DNA of 33,491 nt from Oscillospiraceae bacterium (GTDB taxonomy: Bacteria; Bacillota; Clostridia; Oscillospirales; Oscillospiraceae). The stretch lies in assembly GCA_017621795.1 (NCBI GenBank), contig JAGASJ010000054.1, positions 1-33,491 of the forward strand. The letters run 5' to 3'. Each line of letters opens with the position of its first letter. The stretch's first letter is position 1. This document shows, piece after piece, positions 27,295 to 33,491 of this stretch. The notes under the pieces were generated by a model, which did no database searches, was not told the DNA's origin, and was given only the letters and a program-made list of their open reading frames with translations. A program made the translations under genes and the position numbers.

Positions 27295-28230
27295 ATGGAG
27301 ATGAAGAAAGTTGCTACCCGTGACAGCTACGGCAATGCATTGACCGAGCTGGGCGCAGAGGTTTCCGACCTGGTGGTTTTGGATGCAGACCTGGCAGGCG
27401 CAACCAAGACCGGTGTATTTAAGAAGGCATTCCCCGACCGTCACTTCGACTTCGGCATTGCCGAGGGCAATATGATGACTGCCGCCGCAGGTATGGCCGC
27501 CGCAGGCCTGGTGCCGTTCGTATCCAGCTTTGCAATGTTTGCCGCAGGCCGTGCCTTTGAGCAGGCCCGTAACTCCATCGGTTACCCCCACCTGAATGTA
27601 AAGATCGGTGCTACCCACGGCGGTATTTCCGTGGGTGAGGACGGCGCCAGCCACCAGTGCTGTGAGGACTTTGCGCTGATGCGCTCTATCCCCGGTATGA
27701 CGGTGATCTGCCCCGCAGACGATGTAGAAGCAAAGGCTGCTGTGAAAGCCGCTTATGCCCATCAGGGCCCTGTGTACCTGCGTTTTGGCCGTCTGGCAGT
27801 GCCTGTGTTCCACAGTGAGGATTATCAGTTTGTGATCGGCAAGGGTGAAGTGCTGAAGGACGGCACGGATGTTGCCATTATCGCCAACGGTCTGATGGTC
27901 TATGAAGCCATCGTTGCAGGTGAAGAGCTGGCAAAGGCAGGCATCAATGCAATGGTCATCAATATGCCCACCATCAAGCCCTTGGATGAAGAGCTGGTGC
28001 TGGAAGCTGCCAAGAAGTGCGGCAAGGTGATCACCTGTGAAGAGCACTCCATCATCGGCGGCTTGGGTGAAGCAGTCTGTGGCGTGCTGAGCGAGAAGCT
28101 GCCCACCGTTGTGCGCCGCATCGGCGTCAATGACGAGTACGGTCACTCCGGCCCCGCTGTGGCACTTTTGAAGCAGTTTGGCCTGTGCGCTGACCACATT
28201 GTGGAAGTTGCAAAGGACCTGTGCAAATAA
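27295..28230 (+). CDS. Transketolase, C-terminal subunit
   Basis: The second subunit has the pyrimidine-binding domain and the C-terminal domain. Glu57 in FGIAEGNMM is the residue that activates TPP. CPADDVEAKAAVKAA and the GHSGPAVALL segment near the end are typical. GGAGGG at the end of the first gene, 8 bases before ATG 27295, gives tight coupling. 311 residues; a second ATG two codons on is less well placed. A terminator follows within 50 bases. Confidence 0.95.
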   Translation: MEMKKVATRDSYGNALTELGAEVSDLVVLDADLAGATKTGVFKKAFPDRHFDFGIAEGNMMTAAAGMAAAGLVPFVSSFAMFAAGRAFEQARNSIGYPHLNVKIGATHGGISVGEDGASHQCCEDFALMRSIPGMTVICPADDVEAKAAVKAAYAHQGPVYLRFGRLAVPVFHSEDYQFVIGKGEVLKDGTDVAIIANGLMVYEAIVAGEELAKAGINAMVINMPTIKPLDEELVLEAAKKCGKVITCEEHSIIGGLGEAVCGVLSEKLPTVVRRIGVNDEYGHSGPAVALLKQFGLCADHIVEVAKDLCK

Positions 28231-28248
28231 TTAAATTACAATAAATAA

Positions 28249-28280
28249 CGGGAGTGTTGCAAATCATTGCAGCACTCCCG
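28249..28280 (+). terminator. Hairpin terminator after transketolase
   Basis: CGGGAGTG-T-TGCA (28249-28261) pairs with TGCA-G-CACTCCCG (28268-28280), with one G-T wobble and a 6-nt loop. The following sequence is AT-rich but lacks a clean T-run, so it may be a weak or Rho-assisted terminator. Confidence 0.6.
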
Positions 28281-28614
28281 AATACTATATTTCGTGATCT
28301 GAACCGACCGGAAGTCGGGGGTGCCCCGGAATGGCAATGTTATGAAGTCAACGCATCTGCGCCATTTTGAGGAGCCATAGGCGACGTGGGAATCCGTTCT
28401 CCAAGGGGTATTACGGATTGCCACGCACCTTCGGTGCTCCCAATGACATTCTAAACTTCGTCACATTGTCCGGGAGGGGTGTCCCTACGTTTAGGTGTGT
28501 CGTTTGCATTTTTAGGGGAATTTCGTTGTGGTCGGCGACAGGATCATCCACAATATACTGTGGCGTGCCAAAAAACGCAGGCTTTTTTCTTCGAAAATCT
28601 ACCGGCCGTAGCCG
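28281..28614. other. Long intergenic stretch containing a degenerate repeat element
   Basis: No convincing gene is found between the transketolase terminator and the dnaD promoter. The stretch contains an inverted repeat at 28385-28425 and GC-rich, low-coding sequence on both sides. It looks like the dispersed palindromic intergenic elements seen in gut Clostridia, but copy number cannot be tested from one window. Confidence 0.5.
28385..28425. repeat. Inverted repeat, REP-like
   Basis: CGTGGGAATCCG (28385-28396) faces CGGATTGCCACG (28414-28425), a 12-bp stem with one mismatch and a 17-base loop. In translation this kind of element gives arginine/proline-rich nonsense, which argues that it is not coding. 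Confidence 0.65.
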
Positions 28615-28643
28615 TTGCCTGAATGAAAAAGCTGTGTTATAAT
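28615..28643 (+). promoter_or_regulatory. Promoter of the dnaD-dnaI-HAD operon
   Basis: -35 TTGCCT (28615-28620), 17-base spacer and a consensus -10 TATAAT (28638-28643). The start would be about 28650, 26 bases before the proposed TTG start. Confidence 0.7.
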
Positions 28644-28675
28644 CTATTCGACAAAATATGAGAGGAGGGGTTCGG

Positions 28676-29554
28676 TTGCTGTTTGAAGGCTATTCCATGG
28701 ACGCACTGACCGTCCAAAAATTATTATCTGCGGCCAGCGGTGACGGGGCCCTGCTGTACATCTATCTGAAAAGCGGCAATGATCCGGTGAACGCCCAAAA
28801 GGATCTGCTGATGACCGAGGCCCGTTACCAGTGTGCCGCGGCAACCTTGCGGCAGATGGGCTTGTGGCCGGAGGCACAGAGCAAGATCATTCCCATGGGG
28901 GAGCGTCCCCAATATACCGAGCAGGACGTGGTACAGGCCCTCAACAAGGATCGGGAATTTCGCAGCCTGTACGGTGAGATCCAGCGCCTTTTGGGGAAGA
29001 CCCTGAATAACGAGGAGCTGAAGATCATCTTGGGCTTTGTGCGGTATTTGGGCTTGCCTGCGGATGTGATCTGTGTGCTGGTGTGTTACTGCAAGGATCG
29101 GGCGAAGCAAAAGGGCAGCCTGCGCAATCCCTCCCTGCGTACCATCGAAAAAGAGGCATACGCCTGGGCAGAGCAGGGCATCGACACCATTGAGCAGGCC
29201 GGTGCGTTTATTCAGGCGCAAAATCTGCGTCGCAGTCGCCTGCAGGAGCTGATGCGGATCTTGCAGATCCGTAATCGGGAGCTGACCCCCGGAGAGAAGA
29301 ACTATGCCCAAAAATGGCTGGAAATGGGCTTTCACAAGGATGCCATTGCACTGGCGTATGAGCGCACCTGTGTCAATACCGGTGCGATGAACTGGCCCTA
29401 TATGAATAAGATCCTTGCCCGCTGGCACGAAAAAGGCTTCCATACCGCACAGCAGGTGCTGTCCGGGGACAAAAAGCCCATCCCCAAGGGCGCGTCCGGC
29501 GAGCTGGGGCAGGCCGAGTTGGAGGCCATTCAAAAAGCATTGCAGGAGGTTTGA
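28676..29554 (+). CDS. DnaD-domain replication protein
   Basis: A primosome protein of about 292 residues. The N-terminal part looks like a winged helix (GDGALLYIYLKSG onward), and two DnaD C-terminal (DDBH2) units follow: one from about residue 85 and one from about 180 that ends with the signature Y-x3-I-x2-W (YMNKILARW). DnaD binds DNA and helps load the replicative helicase with DnaB and DnaI. The start is inferred as TTG 28676, 5 bases after GAGGAGGGG; ATG 28658 has no ribosome site, and ATG 28697 is a further option. It is followed by a DnaI/DnaC-like loader after three bases, which supports the function. Confidence 0.88.
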   Translation: MLFEGYSMDALTVQKLLSAASGDGALLYIYLKSGNDPVNAQKDLLMTEARYQCAAATLRQMGLWPEAQSKIIPMGERPQYTEQDVVQALNKDREFRSLYGEIQRLLGKTLNNEELKIILGFVRYLGLPADVICVLVCYCKDRAKQKGSLRNPSLRTIEKEAYAWAEQGIDTIEQAGAFIQAQNLRRSRLQELMRILQIRNRELTPGEKNYAQKWLEMGFHKDAIALAYERTCVNTGAMNWPYMNKILARWHEKGFHTAQQVLSGDKKPIPKGASGELGQAELEAIQKALQEV

Positions 29555-29557
29555 TCG

Positions 29558-30541
29558 ATGGCATACAGTGCAGAGGTAGTGCGCCGTGCCCGTCGGCGTT
29601 TAGAGGAACAGAAAGAGCAAAAAAGGGCAGAGACGGCATCAAAATTACAGCAGGTGTATGCCGAATTACCCCATATTCGGGAGCTGGATGCCCAGCTGCG
29701 CAAAACCATGATTTTGGCGGCACAGGCGGTCTTTACCCAAGGGGACGAGGGAAAAGCGGCGATGGAAGAGGCGAAAAAGGCAAATCTTGCCCTCCAAAAG
29801 CAGCGAAAAGCTGCCATTGACGCCCGTTTTGGACCGGAATTTTTGGACGAAAGCGAAATTTGCGACCGTTGTGGCGGCACGGGCTATTTGGGCAGCCAGA
29901 TGTGTAACTGTCTGATGGAGCTGTGCCGACAGGAGCAGAAGAAGGAGCTGAGCCTTCTAAACTGCGGCGAGGGGGATTTTGAACAGTTTAAGCTGGAGTA
30001 TTATCCTGCTCAGACAGACAGCCGTTACGGCGCAAGCCCCCGTACCATTATGCAGAAGAATTTGGAGCTTTCCAAGCGGTTTGTGCGGAATTTCGGCGCA
30101 GGTAATCTGCTGTTTGTAGGCGGCACAGGCTTGGGCAAAACTTATATGTCTGCCTGTATTGCCCGAAGTGTGGCAGACAGCGGGCACAGCGTGGCTTACG
30201 AACCTGCAGGCCGTCTTTTTGCCAAGCTGGAGCGCAATCGGTTTAATCCCAGTGCGGAGACCGAGGAGGAGATGCGCCGCCTGCAGGATTGCGATCTGCT
30301 GATCGTGGACGATTTGGGCACAGAGCTGCCCGGCAATTTTGTGACCGCCGCCCTGTACGGTCTGCTGAACGACCGCCTGCTGGCGGGAAAGCCCATGGTG
30401 ATCTCCACCAACCTGAATATTGATGAGATCGCCCAGCGCTACTCTCCCCAAATTGCCTCCCGTCTGCAAGGGCACTTTAAGGTACTGCCCTTTGTGGGAG
30501 AGGATATTCGTGTAATGAAGAATCGAGGAATTGTATTTTGA
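29558..30541 (+). CDS. DnaC/DnaI-type helicase loader, AAA+ ATPase
   Basis: A 327-residue helicase loader. The N-terminal helical region (1-95) is followed by a zinc-binding cluster Cys102, Cys105, Cys116 and Cys118, as in DnaI, then an AAA+ domain with Walker A GGTGLGKT (188-195) and Walker B LLIVDDLGTE (247-256) and an arginine-rich end. It should deliver the replicative DNA helicase to the origin or restart sites together with the DnaD-like protein. AGGAGG overlaps the end of the upstream gene. DnaI proper is the best match; IstB-type transposition helpers are unlikely because no transposase is adjacent and a zinc finger is present. Confidence 0.9.
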   Translation: MAYSAEVVRRARRRLEEQKEQKRAETASKLQQVYAELPHIRELDAQLRKTMILAAQAVFTQGDEGKAAMEEAKKANLALQKQRKAAIDARFGPEFLDESEICDRCGGTGYLGSQMCNCLMELCRQEQKKELSLLNCGEGDFEQFKLEYYPAQTDSRYGASPRTIMQKNLELSKRFVRNFGAGNLLFVGGTGLGKTYMSACIARSVADSGHSVAYEPAGRLFAKLERNRFNPSAETEEEMRRLQDCDLLIVDDLGTELPGNFVTAALYGLLNDRLLAGKPMVISTNLNIDEIAQRYSPQIASRLQGHFKVLPFVGEDIRVMKNRGIVF

Positions 30542-31185
30542 GAATCGGTGTTTTGTTTGATTTGGACGGCACACTTTTAAATACACTGGAGGATTTGACC
30601 GACAGTGTCAATTATGTTTTAAGAAGCCACGGCTGTCCGGAGCGTACCCAAAAAAATGTGCGGGACTTTATCGGAAACGGTGCACGGCGGCTCATCGAGC
30701 TGTCTCTGCCCGGCACACCGGATGACCCGGATGTGGATACGGCCCTTGCAGAGTACCAGGCATATTATAAAGCCCATAGCCAAGTAAAAACCCGTCCCTA
30801 TGAGGGGGTGGTGGAGGCACTGCAGGAGCTGCAAAAATGCTACCCGGTGGCCATCGTGTCCAATAAGCCGGACGGGGCAACCAAGCTGCTGTGCAAGCAG
30901 TGGTTTGGGGACGTGTATGCAGCAGGAGAGAGCGCCGACTGCCCCCGTAAGCCTGCGCCGGATATGCTGTATAAGGCAATGAAGGCCATCGGCGTGGACC
31001 GCTGTGTGTATGTGGGCGACAGCGATGTGGACGTGATCACGGCCCATAATGCAGGCGCCCGGTGCCTGAGTGTGCTGTGGGGCTTCCGGGATCGGGAAGA
31101 TATTGAAAAGGTTGGGGGCACCCACTTCTGTGAAAATCCCAAGGAGCTACTTCCTTGCTTATTGAGATTGCTGCAAGAGCTGTAG
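30538..31185 (+). CDS. HAD-family phosphatase, phosphoglycolate phosphatase-like
   Basis: A 215-residue hydrolase with the HAD nucleophile motif FDLDGT (Asp8, Asp10), the cap domain, the second motif IVSNKPD and the acidic motif VGDSDVDVITAHNAG. This is the Gph/PpaX-like branch that dephosphorylates phosphoglycolate or similar small phosphates; substrate not certain. The start is TTG 30538, overlapping the upstream TGA stop by three bases (TTGA), with GAGGA about 8 bases before. Translational coupling to the DnaI-like gene is likely, though function seems unrelated. Confidence 0.88.
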   Translation: MRIGVLFDLDGTLLNTLEDLTDSVNYVLRSHGCPERTQKNVRDFIGNGARRLIELSLPGTPDDPDVDTALAEYQAYYKAHSQVKTRPYEGVVEALQELQKCYPVAIVSNKPDGATKLLCKQWFGDVYAAGESADCPRKPAPDMLYKAMKAIGVDRCVYVGDSDVDVITAHNAGARCLSVLWGFRDREDIEKVGGTHFCENPKELLPCLLRLLQEL

Positions 31186-31201
31186 CTTTTTTCCTACAGC
31201 T
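31178..31201 (+). terminator. Weak hairpin at the end of the HAD gene
   Basis: AGCTGTAG (31178-31185, containing the stop codon) pairs with CTACAGCT (31194-31201), with T-rich loop bases. It is followed only by TTCACTT. It probably limits read-through into the tRNA gene. Confidence 0.4.
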
Positions 31202-31206
31202 TTCAC

Positions 31207-31235
31207 TTGACGGATGATGCAAAATATGGTACTAT
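31207..31235 (+). promoter_or_regulatory. Promoter of tRNA-Leu
   Basis: -35 TTGACG (31207-31212), 17-base spacer, -10 TACTAT (31230-31235). The start would be near 31242, giving a 5' leader of about 22 bases removed by RNase P. Confidence 0.65.
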
Positions 31236-31263
31236 CTACCTCGTTGATGGATGTACCATCCAC

Positions 31264-31350
31264 GCCGGTATGGTGGAATAGGTAGACACAAGGGACTTAA
31301 AATCCCTCGCCGTAAAAAGCGTACCGGTTCGAGTCCGGTTACCGGCACCA
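31264..31350 (+). tRNA. tRNA-Leu (anticodon UAA)
   Basis: An 87-base tRNA with encoded CCA (31348-31350). Acceptor arms GCCGGTA (31264-31270) and TACCGGC (31340-31346) pair fully. The anticodon stem AGGGA/TCCCT encloses a 7-base loop with TAA at 31298-31300. A long variable arm and TTCGAGTCC T-loop are present, typical of a class II leucine tRNA. It reads UUA codons. Confidence 0.97.
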
Positions 31351-31403
31351 AAAAAAGACGACCCTTTTGGGGTCGTCTTTTTTTGGTGCCGGTAACCGGA
31401 CTC
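31331..31403. repeat. 34-bp perfect inverted repeat including the tRNA 3' end
   Basis: Positions 31331-31364 (from GAG in the T-arm, through CCA, to the terminator) are the exact reverse complement of 31370-31403, with a 5-base loop. The inner part is a classical terminator stem; the outer 19 base pairs duplicate the tRNA T-arm and acceptor 3' strand in reverse orientation. Confidence 0.9.
31357..31384. terminator. tRNA-Leu terminator
   Basis: GACGACCC (31357-31364) pairs with GGGTCGTC (31370-31377) and is followed by seven T (31378-31384). The A-run before it makes it equally good in the leftward direction. It is the core of the longer inverted repeat. Confidence 0.85.
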
Positions 31404-31575
31404 AGCTATATTCGCCTTCGGCGAGTTATATTGGCGGTGCCAGTTATATTTGCTTCGCAAGTTATATTGCCCTTCGGGCAGTTTTGGAGGCGAATATAAT
31501 ATAACTGAAGCCGTCAGGCTTCAATATAACTTTCACATCGTGAAAATATAACTCCGGCAACGCCGGAATATCACT
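31404..31575. repeat. Micro-hairpin array with conserved 9-nt linkers
   Basis: Eight linkers separate seven short palindromes. Forward linkers AGYTATATT start at 31404, 31424, 31442 and 31460; reverse-complement linkers AATATMACT start at 31498, 31523, 31545 and 31567. The elements between them are all perfect inverted repeats but all different: 31413-31423, 31433-31441, 31451-31459, 31469-31479, 31507-31522, 31532-31544 and 31554-31566. Four have a three-base TTC, ATC or AAC loop within 11-13 bases. A transition segment at 31480-31497 joins the two orientations, and TATATTCGCC (31407-31416) is complementary to 31489-31498. No ORF of credible quality. Function unknown. Confidence 0.85.
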
Positions 31576-31624
31576 TAAAATCGCAGCGAAAAGCCGCACT
31601 TGCAAAAAGAGAGGCTTTCTCGAT

Positions 31625-31837
31625 TTATTCGCCTTTTTGAAATTCCAGAATGTCGCCGGCGTCGCACTTCAGCACATCGCAGATGGCAGCCAGGGTAGAG
31701 AAGCGGATGGCCGTCACCTTGTTGTTTTTGATTTTGGAAAGATTGACATTGGAGATTCCCACACGTTCCGCAAGTTCGTTTAAGGAAATTTTCCGCTCCA
31801 CCATCATTCGATCCAAACGGAGAACGATTTTACCCAT
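31625..31837 (-). CDS. Small XRE-family regulator (YozG-like)
   Basis: A 70-residue DNA-binding protein that is almost entirely a Cro/C1 helix-turn-helix (about residues 8-60, with ISLNELAERVGISNVNLSKIKNNK as helices two and three). It is of the YozG type, usually found beside a DUF2975 membrane protein, as here. AAGGGGG is about 5 bases before ATG 31837. It follows the DUF2975 gene by nine bases and is probably cotranscribed with it. It is likely to bind the direct repeat upstream of its own operon. Confidence 0.9.
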   Translation of the reverse strand: MGKIVLRLDRMMVERKISLNELAERVGISNVNLSKIKNNKVTAIRFSTLAAICDVLKCDAGDILEFQKGE

Positions 31838-31846
31838 AGTGCCCCC

Positions 31847-32404
31847 TTAAACCAATCCGTCAACATCTTTTTCAAGCTTGGCGCCATAGGCAAAAAACTG
31901 TGTAAGACACAAAATAATGATGCCCATAAAAATGCCGCTCATATCAATGCTGATCTCTGCTGTTTCCACACCGGTGACCAGGCGGATAATGGTGCTCATA
32001 ATGAGTCCGATCACGGGCACGGAGATGGAGAAAATGCCGATTTGGCGCATCAGGCGCACATTGTCCTTTTGGAAGGGTGTGGCGTTTTCGGACTTCTTAA
32101 AGATCAGGTGCAGATTGCGAAATACCATCGCCATCACCGCAAGGATGATCACCGCGCCGATGCCAAAGAGGAAAAAAGATACCATATCTGTCTTGTCGTC
32201 CACAACAGGGGCGTTGACTTCAAAGCCGTACACATTGAGCTCTGCCCCACAGCAATCCTTCCCATCAAAGCTGACGAAGCGATTGACCCAATCGGGTGCG
32301 GCAACGGAGCACACGGTAGCGGCCAGCATCAACGCGGCACCCACCCAGTGAAATACCTCTAAGATTTTTGTGATCACTGTTCCAAGCTTGTTAAGACCTT
32401 TCAT
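31847..32404 (-). CDS. DUF2975 family membrane protein (YoaS-like)
   Basis: A 185-residue protein with four predicted membrane helices (about residues 15-38, 72-95, 122-145 and 155-175). A cysteine pair (CC) lies in the loop after helix one, which should be extracytoplasmic. DUF2975 proteins have no settled function; their constant partner is a small XRE regulator, as found immediately downstream. AGGAGG lies 8 bases before ATG 32404. It may act as a membrane sensor or a target for the regulator; that is inference. Confidence 0.88.
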   Translation of the reverse strand: MKGLNKLGTVITKILEVFHWVGAALMLAATVCSVAAPDWVNRFVSFDGKDCCGAELNVYGFEVNAPVVDDKTDMVSFFLFGIGAVIILAVMAMVFRNLHLIFKKSENATPFQKDNVRLMRQIGIFSISVPVIGLIMSTIIRLVTGVETAEISIDMSGIFMGIIILCLTQFFAYGAKLEKDVDGLV

Positions 32405-32435
32405 AATAAGTACCTCCTATGTGTTTGTTGGTATA

Positions 32436-32464
32436 AGCTTAGCACAGATTTTAATGTTTGTCAA
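32436..32464 (-). promoter_or_regulatory. Promoter of the DUF2975-XRE operon
   Basis: Leftward -35 TTGACA (32459-32464) and an extended -10 TGC-TAAGCT (hexamer 32436-32441), spacer 17. The -10 hexamer is weak, which suits a regulated promoter. The -35 overlaps one copy of the direct repeat at 32450-32462. Confidence 0.6.
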
Positions 32465-32483
32465 TGAAAATTTAATGTTTGTC
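32450..32483. promoter_or_regulatory. Two 13-bp direct repeats, likely XRE operator
   Basis: TTTAATGTTTGTC occurs exactly at 32450-32462 and again at 32471-32483, a 21-base period, which is two helical turns, so both copies face the same side of DNA. One copy covers the -35 of the DUF2975-XRE promoter. Autorepression by the XRE protein is the simplest reading. Confidence 0.65.
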
Positions 32484-32645
32484 GTTAAATACGCGCATAC
32501 TCCCTGTTAGGTCCCTACTACCTTGTTAAGCCTAAAATTATACGTCATTGTTGTGAAGGAGCACCACCAACGCCTCCCCTATAAGCTCTTACGGCAGGAA
32601 GAGTTGCCTACGAGGAAGCAGCTTCTTCATCCGTACCGATTTTAT
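32484..32645. other. Intergenic stretch, nothing recognised
   Basis: Between the operator and the rsmE promoter no gene, RNA or clear hairpin is recognised. A frame opening at a TTG (32523) crosses the rsmE start and lacks a ribosome site. Confidence 0.4.
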
Positions 32646-32674
32646 TTGCAATGTACTGATCTTGGTGGTATAAT
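32646..32674 (+). promoter_or_regulatory. Promoter of rsmE
   Basis: -35 TTGCAA (32646-32651), 17-base spacer and consensus -10 TATAAT (32669-32674). The start near 32681 gives a leader of about 44 bases. Confidence 0.7.
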
Positions 32675-32724
32675 GACCTGTAAAGAGCCGCAAGGATCGC
32701 TTGCGGTGGTTACGGGGGATTCAA

Positions 32725-33456
32725 ATGACCAGATTTTTTGTAACGTCCCGGGAGTTAGACGGGGATTTTTTGGTGTTGACCGGTGAAAACGCAGACCACG
32801 CCAAGGTACTGCGCCTGAAAAACGGGGAGCAGGTCTTGGTATGTGACGGTGAGGGCAGAGAGTGTATTTGCACGGTCAGTGATGTCAGCCCCGGGCAAAT
32901 CAGCCTGGTGGTGCTTTCCCGGCAGGAGAGCAAAACGGAGGCTTCCGTCCGTGTGCGGGTCTATATGGCCTTTCCCAAGGGGGACAAGCTGGAGCACGTG
33001 ATTCAAAAGGCAACAGAGCTGGGGGCTTATGAGATCGTGGCATTTCCCTCCAACAGATGTGTTTCCAGACCGGATGAAAAAAGCCTGCAGAAAAAGCTGG
33101 AGCGCTGGCAGAAGATTGCCGCCTCTGCGGCAGAGCAGTCCGGGCGGGGACTTGTGCCCCGTGTGCGGGTACTGAAAAGCTATCAGGAGGCACTGCAGGA
33201 TGGGGCGCAAACAGACCTGCCGATTTTGTTCTACGAAAATGAACGGGCCACCACCTTGCGTATGGCGTTGGAGGAACAGCCGTTCCGGTCTGTTTCCCTG
33301 CTCACCGGACCGGAGGGAGGCTTGGAGGAGCGGGAAGTGGAGCAGGCAAAAAACGCCGGCTTCCGAATTTGCACCTTGGGCAGCCGCATTTTGCGGTGTG
33401 AAACAGCGCCGCTGTGTGCACTGTCGGCAGTGATGTATGCCGCCGGAGAATTTTAA
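32725..33456 (+). CDS. rsmE: 16S rRNA m3U1498 methyltransferase
   Basis: RsmE transfers a methyl group from S-adenosylmethionine to N3 of U1498 in 16S rRNA. The 243-residue protein has the N-terminal PUA-like region and the C-terminal SPOUT (knotted) domain with EQSGR (137-141), LLTGPEGGLEEREV (GPEGG at 195-199) and LGSRILRCETA (218-228). The frame can be opened at TTG 32701, but GGGGG lies in between, 6 bases before ATG 32725, which is preferred. Monocistronic within the window, followed by a hairpin. Confidence 0.95.
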   Translation: MTRFFVTSRELDGDFLVLTGENADHAKVLRLKNGEQVLVCDGEGRECICTVSDVSPGQISLVVLSRQESKTEASVRVRVYMAFPKGDKLEHVIQKATELGAYEIVAFPSNRCVSRPDEKSLQKKLERWQKIAASAAEQSGRGLVPRVRVLKSYQEALQDGAQTDLPILFYENERATTLRMALEEQPFRSVSLLTGPEGGLEEREVEQAKNAGFRICTLGSRILRCETAPLCALSAVMYAAGEF

Positions 33457-33464
33457 AAAATAAG

Positions 33465-33491
33465 GGCTTGTTGCGAATATTGCAACAAGCC
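33465..33491 (+). terminator. Hairpin after rsmE, cut by the window edge
   Basis: GGCTTGTTGC (33465-33474) pairs perfectly with GCAACAAGCC (33482-33491), with a 7-base loop. The window ends at the last stem base, so a T-run cannot be checked. Confidence 0.65.

Follow-up and report, generated by a model that had tools for sequence, protein, structure and literature searches.

The ORF of the IVP/S23p family is not carried by every 23S rRNA IVS, and IVP belongs to the same broad group as Avd, the DGR accessory protein, which is likewise a four-helix bundle. According to an excerpt of PMC4990558, heptamer repeats precede the ORF in the Coxiella IVS, and the IVP of X. campestris is a homopentamer. 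Gut-1, classed as an sRNA in Rfam (RF01706), was published as a candidate RNA restricted to the human gut (excerpt of PMC2864571), and its row there begins with a 'Y' that we take to stand in the RNA column. In the open-licence PMC papers searched, a set that leaves most subscription papers and preprints outside, we found neither a link between Gut-1 and IVP nor a description of the element analyzed here.

A mirror-symmetric array behind a tRNA-Leu gene

The array occupies positions 31404..31575 of the window (the whole 33,491-nt stretch of DNA that was analyzed), and letter-by-letter reading bore out the seven perfect hairpins proposed in the initial annotation, set among eight linkers. The forward half (31404..31479, plus strand) is Gut-1-like and contains hairpins at 31413-31423, 31433-31441, 31451-31459, and 31469-31479, with the linkers AGCTATATT at 31404 and AGTTATATT at 31424, 31442, and 31460. 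The reverse half (31498..31575) is Gut-1-like on the minus strand and contains hairpins at 31507-31522, 31532-31544, and 31554-31566, with the reverse-complement linkers AATATAACT at 31498, 31523, and 31545 and AATATCACT at 31567. The count and order of four forward and four reverse-complement linkers therefore stand as first described, with an exact word in six of the eight and a difference of one base in the two outermost. The mirror axis (31480..31497, no strand) was present where it had been placed. One segment of it, AGGCGAATATA (31488-31498), has 11-nt complementarity to the outer end of the array, TATATTCGCCT (31407-31417), and by eye the same relationship is kept, in different letters, in another copy (C61). 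Both halves matched the whole Gut-1 model (left half: 40.5 bits, plus strand; right half: 26.5 bits, minus strand), under its gathering score of 50 bits. With at most one mismatch, the linker 9-mer occurs 13 times in the window (5.2 expected; 1 of 100 shuffles reached 13). Folded as RNA, the array has a calculated energy of -65.2 kcal/mol (z -6.6; none of 200 shuffles was as good), and three of its four forward hairpins have the loop TTC.

Upstream lies a tRNA-Leu(TAA) gene (31264..31350, plus strand; ARAGORN; Rfam RF00005, 60.1 bits), followed by a terminator-like hairpin (31331..31403, no strand), which is a 34-nt perfect inverted repeat with a 5-nt loop. The second arm of this repeat then repeats the final 20 nt of tRNA-Leu in inverted orientation and abuts the first linker. 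The same arrangement of terminator and inverted tRNA end was found, in other letters, at a second array (C37; L010). Matches to MIR1319, MIR6450, Thr_leader, STnc250, and similar Rfam entries were all below cut-off and are taken to stem from the perfect tRNA/terminator palindrome. There was no Rfam match to rRNA in window positions 28000-33491 and the array follows tRNA-Leu, so it does not lie in a 23S rRNA helix.

To the right of the array, the opposite strand encodes, by eye, an HTH-like protein and then a membrane protein. No IVP gene was found in the window, and its array is a solo copy: it has the layout of the element, a mirror-symmetric linker-hairpin array behind a terminator-like hairpin, and no adjacent IVP. 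By eye, the right flank resembled a relic IVP promoter, a candidate rejected when local alignment did not beat shuffles (scoring as well: 979 of 1000 against C37, 903 against L119, and 176 against C79b); with the flank unlike an IVP promoter, loss of a gene at this copy is an assumption. The initial annotation, supported in part, had noted neither that the array sits behind a tRNA terminator nor that a four-helix-bundle gene goes with many related arrays.

Gut-1 arrays, paired stems, and the IVP gene

The array had been described as fitting no RNA family; Gut-1 is such a family, matching the window below its cut-off and 14 places of the window's genome above it (among 40 matches listed at E<=1). 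Gut-1 matches occurred in 18 of 40 related genomes, above cut-off in 17, and among 14 control genomes E. coli alone was matched at E<=0.001, under cut-off. Similar arrays, which had been expected in other Clostridia, were thus found among relatives and also at further IVP loci from gut and rumen. Within the window's genome, the linker-gap-linker pattern was found 19 times (0 for the reversed pattern), and with a wider linker 38 times (reversed: 1). As a search word, AGTTATATT alone retrieved few relatives (4 of 200 genomes, including the window's own) because the linker word changes between elements; AGTGATATT or AGTGAAATT serves as linker in other arrays there, most of which keep to a single word. 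A further array of the window's genome (L139; contig C95, 377-732) has 11 units with the word AATTCAT and is longer than most. In loci that had mostly been chosen for arrays, our array finder called 92 arrays of at least two units, compared to one in dinucleotide shuffles, which served as the control because hairpins survive reversal and reversed (uncomplemented) sequence is useless for this purpose.

Pairing was assessed using inserts between successive linker words, taken without requiring a stem (246 unique, 242 usable), with the stem register fixed once per linker class and the 3' arms shuffled within class (2000 shuffles). Outer stem positions were paired in 899 of 956 cases (94.0%; shuffled mean 40.6%, maximum 46.2%), and 200 of the 242 inserts were fully paired over the tested positions (at most 38 in shuffles). 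There were 88 distinct outer arms among the 242 units, and all four Watson-Crick pairs were common at each position. These results agree with the proposal that pairing, not sequence, is kept: the array occurs in many copies and its arms change together, as opposed to a single occurrence with no compensatory changes. The hairpins had also been said to share no common sequence, but many copies share a C-G closing pair (206 of 219) and a loop beginning with T (frequently TTC, TGC, TTT, or TAC). On the linker-forward strand, the loop is T-first in 95 of 107 units of the 5' half and, this being the other strand there, in 93 of 112 units of the 3' half; the two halves with their mirror-matched loops therefore present one unit type on opposite strands. 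The TNC loop is the complement of GNA, a very stable class of DNA triloop.

Many related arrays lie directly upstream of a four-helix-bundle gene, and the five proteins tested match PF05635 (23S_rRNA_IVP) and TIGR02436; for one of the five, 2rld was the sole solved structure with a sequence match. The IVP was found in 24 of the 40 relatives, comprising 17 of 18 Gut-1-positive and 7 of 22 Gut-1-negative genomes (Fisher p 6e-5). The positive genome without an IVP match is G234, and of two IVPs in G201 one has no array and the other is too near a contig end to judge. In the window's genome (89% complete), the sole IVP found beside a AGTTATATT array (C37) reads in two frames.

A search of gut and rumen genomes yielded 580 further IVP loci, of which 80 were kept and 76 had at least 300 nt upstream; these loci favour array-linked types because the query consisted of seven IVPs already known to be array-linked. 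Arrays were upstream of the IVP in 61 of the 76 and downstream in 5 (shuffles: 0), and a tRNA or tmRNA gene was upstream on the same strand in 47, with none on the opposite strand or downstream. Four loci overlap earlier ones; the 72 that remain had arrays upstream in 58 and downstream in 5, and tRNA upstream on the same strand in 43 (opposite strand: 0; downstream: 0). Among the 14 of these 72 loci without a detected array, 11 have a tRNA. The elements often run from a tRNA and its terminator through the forward half, the axis, and the reverse half to the IVP.

Linker words differ between elements (GTGAAAT, GATGAAATC, AGCTAAATT, AGTTATATT/AGTGATATT, ATGATATA, GCGATAT, CATGAATTG, GTGATGT, and others), and within one element the linker is largely a single word. 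Linker similarity followed IVP identity in 38 array-IVP pairs (Mantel r 0.574; 0 of 20000 permutations) and in the new set (r 0.685 for 62 pairs; 0.678 for 60 non-overlapping pairs, 0 of 5000 permutations). Where one genome has several elements, the linker belonging to the most similar foreign IVP was closer than that of the other resident element in 29 of 34 comparisons (5 against), hence species history alone does not explain the match. The linker word and the IVP are co-inherited as one element. This points to recognition of the linker by its IVP, although joint descent of array and gene would equally produce the co-inheritance.

Genomic positions, dispersal, and related architectures

In the window's genome, a tRNA 3' end lies within 130 nt of 9 of 24 Gut-1 elements, at a distance of 25-59 nt, and one of the nine is also near a tRNA 5' end; for the other 15, no tRNA 3' end lies that near (130 nt). 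This comparison used 34 of the 40 Gut-1 matches (the 6 weakest were omitted) and 39 tRNAs over cut-off. In a larger set of 83 unique arrays, 42 stand behind a tRNA or tmRNA on the same strand and are separated from it by a hairpin (median arm 16.5), a figure that is biased since the set was partly fetched by tRNA and IVP queries, and 9 of 24 is the fairer estimate.

Copies with sharp ends were found at different sites. Two arrays of the window's genome (C11 and C46) are 96.8% identical over 190 bp, starting at the first linker; the C11 array is beside an IVP that holds one stop and the C46 array is behind tRNA-Gly without an IVP, and their terminators differ. Similarly, two arrays in G200 share 91% identity behind tRNA-Leu and tRNA-Gly, with differing terminators and, by eye, unrelated right flanks. 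The occurrence of near-identical arrays after different terminators shows that the unit spreads. Three GTGATATT arrays of the window's genome (L035, L036, and L037 on C69, C79, and C83) are 86-87% identical over 357-385 bp, flanks included, and this subtype therefore spread or was duplicated with its borders. For the array element, we found no catalytic gene, no duplication of the target site, and no exact pair of filled and empty sites.

Orthologous sites also differ in what they carry. Of 45 tRNA-Cys 3' ends in the genus, 30 were retrieved, of which 28 were readable; by eye, these held a hairpin array or its remnant in 4 cases (the finder called 2), inverted arrays of short words or their remnants in 7 (some with IVP), a third kind of element in 3, and nothing evident in 14. 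In the word-type elements behind tRNA-Cys (L215, L217, and L235), the axis contains, by eye, an inverted copy of the tRNA end plus the start of the terminator. Fold-back synthesis at insertion may explain such inverted tRNA-end copies, both in the word-type axis and in the window and C37. A distinct element of about 200 bp, recognized by eye behind tRNA genes, consists of a terminator, an inverted copy of the 3' end of its own tRNA, and 2-3 hairpins (tRNA-Leu: L064, L067-L070, L072, L076, L080, L083, and L089; tRNA-Cys: L219, L220, and L238). Its inverted copy varies with the host tRNA, and in several loci the hairpins are followed by a second copy of that 3' end in direct orientation.

IVP genes that have neither a detected hairpin array nor a tRNA nearby are often bordered by short-word inverted arrays, which exceeded all 30 shuffles at 16 of 20 such genes, compared to 3 of 36 array-linked IVPs and 0 of 12 with a tRNA and no array. 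By eye, the IVP has such borders on a Monoglobus plasmid and on a Treponema plasmid as well. Four-helix-bundle genes between inverted short words (e.g., GAGAGTGGAGAGTTG and AATTATGCATTATG) were seen at L093, L095-L098, L186, L196, L197, L323, and L324, loci that include plasmids and, by eye, a spirochaete; at L323, the IVP match lies between hsdS and hsdR. The IVP was also found in 2 of 50,697 phage records. These two (L321, MT835590.1; L322, MT835815.1) are unannotated, were filed as human-faecal phage, and both contain an array and an IVP. By eye, they resemble bacterial chromosome, with a tRNA-Arg in L322 and what we take to be an SRP-protein-like tail, and they were given no weight as a sign of transfer by phage.

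A candidate selfish element and its closest relatives

We consider it probable that a mirror-symmetric linker-hairpin array and an IVP gene (PF05635/TIGR02436) together form a selfish element that disperses, and that the window array is one of its gene-less copies. In such an element, an IVP oligomer would recognize its own linker word together with the C-TNC-G hairpins (C-GNA-G on the other strand), in DNA that is extruded or single-stranded. Because its two halves are inverted, the element would present one binding array on either strand, making the action strand-independent. At the base of terminator hairpins, frequently of tRNA genes, insertion would do little harm, and the IVP-array complex might steer the element to such landing sites. 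Stems would turn over by changes that rewrite both arms, with pairing surviving as the sequence drifts, and a cognate IVP might act in trans on gene-less arrays such as the window copy.

Action as DNA is favoured by the scarcity of G·T wobble together with the mirror-symmetric C-TNC-G loops; stems maintained as RNA usually tolerate G·U. Among stems with 60% or more pairing, G·T or T·G accounted for 13 of 2218 pairs (tRNA acceptor stems of the same loci: 76 of 1407) and C·A or A·C for 39 of 2218 (acceptor stems: 4 of 1407), in a count that included 109 other mismatches and is inflated by loop ends. A stricter count, limited to isolated internal mismatches, found 5 G·T and 16 C·A at 1379 positions. 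The mismatch asymmetry was not used as proof of which strand folds. Calculated hairpin energies favour the linker-reverse strand with DNA parameters (130 to 33, 154 ties) and with RNA parameters (119 to 43, 155 ties), and do not separate DNA from RNA. By a strict test, 16 of 62 loci, and no more, have a consensus promoter in the interval that separates the array from the IVP, and 1 of 62 has one in a stretch inside the array (2.6% of shuffles). The terminator-like hairpin before the array, and the promoter after it in part of the loci, suggest that the array normally lies outside any message.

These observations bear directly on the reading of Gut-1 as a noncoding RNA or an IVS-like RNA segment, whose read-through transcripts would fold and be cut (e.g., by RNase III) or bound by IVP as RNA, much like the excision of IVS from 23S rRNA. 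Its sRNA type in Rfam, the presumed RNA column in the excerpt of PMC2864571, and the strong RNA fold of the window array (z -6.6) speak for this, as does the Coxiella IVS, which has S23p and is cut by RNase III (excerpt of PMC4990558). However, a terminator-like hairpin precedes the array and an IVP promoter follows it at some loci, G·T pairs are scarce in the stems, loop and linker orientation follows the mirror and not a single transcript strand, and no promoter of the array's own was seen, so that we regard this reading as rather unlikely. A boundary useful to the host at the end of tRNA operons (a bidirectional terminator, a protector of RNA 3' ends, or a topology site), as proposed for REP, would account for mirror symmetry serving both directions and for the 9 of 24 elements after a tRNA 3' end, with 1 near a tRNA 5' end. 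It has difficulty with the 15 that are not behind a tRNA, with a linker word that varies with the IVP clade, with a presence that is patchy in the genus and tracks IVP genes, and with the remnants seen by eye at orthologous sites, and we judge it clearly improbable.

Still less credible, in our estimate, is the idea that fold-back DNA synthesis (quasi-palindrome correction) keeps making perfect palindromes as a neutral by-product, without any protein. Paired stems with 88 distinct arms and the inverted tRNA-end copies (in the window and C37, and by eye inside word-type elements) are what such a process would leave, but it does not explain identical linkers within an array and their match to the IVP clade, or the regular two-half layout with its constant loop type; the same synthesis may nonetheless be the mutational motor of the element. 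Movement as a REP/REPIN by a RAYT (Y1, HUH) transposase would fit the inverted palindrome pairs, the many dispersed copies, and the logic of single-stranded DNA hairpins (abstracts of PMC3116915 and PMC8266576), yet we give it almost no weight. Y1_Tnp matches were found in 8 of 17 Gut-1-positive and 6 of 13 negative genomes (the positive G234 was left out), and this lack of enrichment shows no link between Y1 and Gut-1. The 9 positives without a match include G000 (the window's genome, 89% complete), G200, G224, and G232, each with 29-34 Gut-1 matches. Membership in REP/REPIN-RAYT was rejected on the absence of a Y1 match from these 9 genomes and its lack of enrichment in positives, and the palindrome sequence is likewise unconserved (88 arms in 242 units).

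The selfish element with its IVP gene remains the preferred reading. More tentatively, and as a possibility that we would not yet back, Gut-1 would be no RNA gene but half of a DNA element of a new mobile or selfish class in bacteria, in which IVP, a four-helix bundle not known to be catalytic, reads its own linker in single-stranded hairpin arrays, hairpins are selected solely for shape and loop, the two strands show one and the same array, and insertion is steered to terminator hairpins, often at tRNA genes, perhaps with fold-back copying of the target. If true, this would provide the first function for the 23S-rRNA-IVP family and join two orphans, the Rfam motif Gut-1 and the protein family IVP/S23p (TIGR02436), neither of which has an assigned function. 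The pairing of linker word and IVP clade is directly testable, and the natural variants suit swaps. The array would also represent a natural case of selection on base pairing with scarce wobble, a possible discriminator of DNA from RNA hairpins in genome scans.

Compared to known systems, the element shares with Gut-1 the three consensus hairpins on a repeated GUGAAAU linker, and each half of the window array matches the whole model. In contrast to the Rfam entry, which models one half and is filed as sRNA, that half here belongs to a mirror element with many linker words and ties to IVP. Like the 23S rRNA IVS (e.g., Coxiella; excerpt of PMC4990558), it is associated with the IVP/S23p family, selfish in character, hairpin-forming, and located in or beside stable RNA genes, but it lies outside 23S rRNA, often behind a tRNA terminator, carries an array of variable hairpins, and in part of the loci has a consensus promoter for its own IVP. 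It resembles REPIN/REP-RAYT systems (abstracts of PMC3116915 and PMC8266576) in its inverted palindromes, many scattered non-autonomous copies, and co-evolving cognate protein, and differs from them in having no link to Y1, no conserved palindrome sequence, and a four-helix bundle as partner. Judged by these comparisons, the element is most likely REPIN-like with a different protein and a gene akin to that of the 23S rRNA IVS, and by the tests applied here it belongs to neither.
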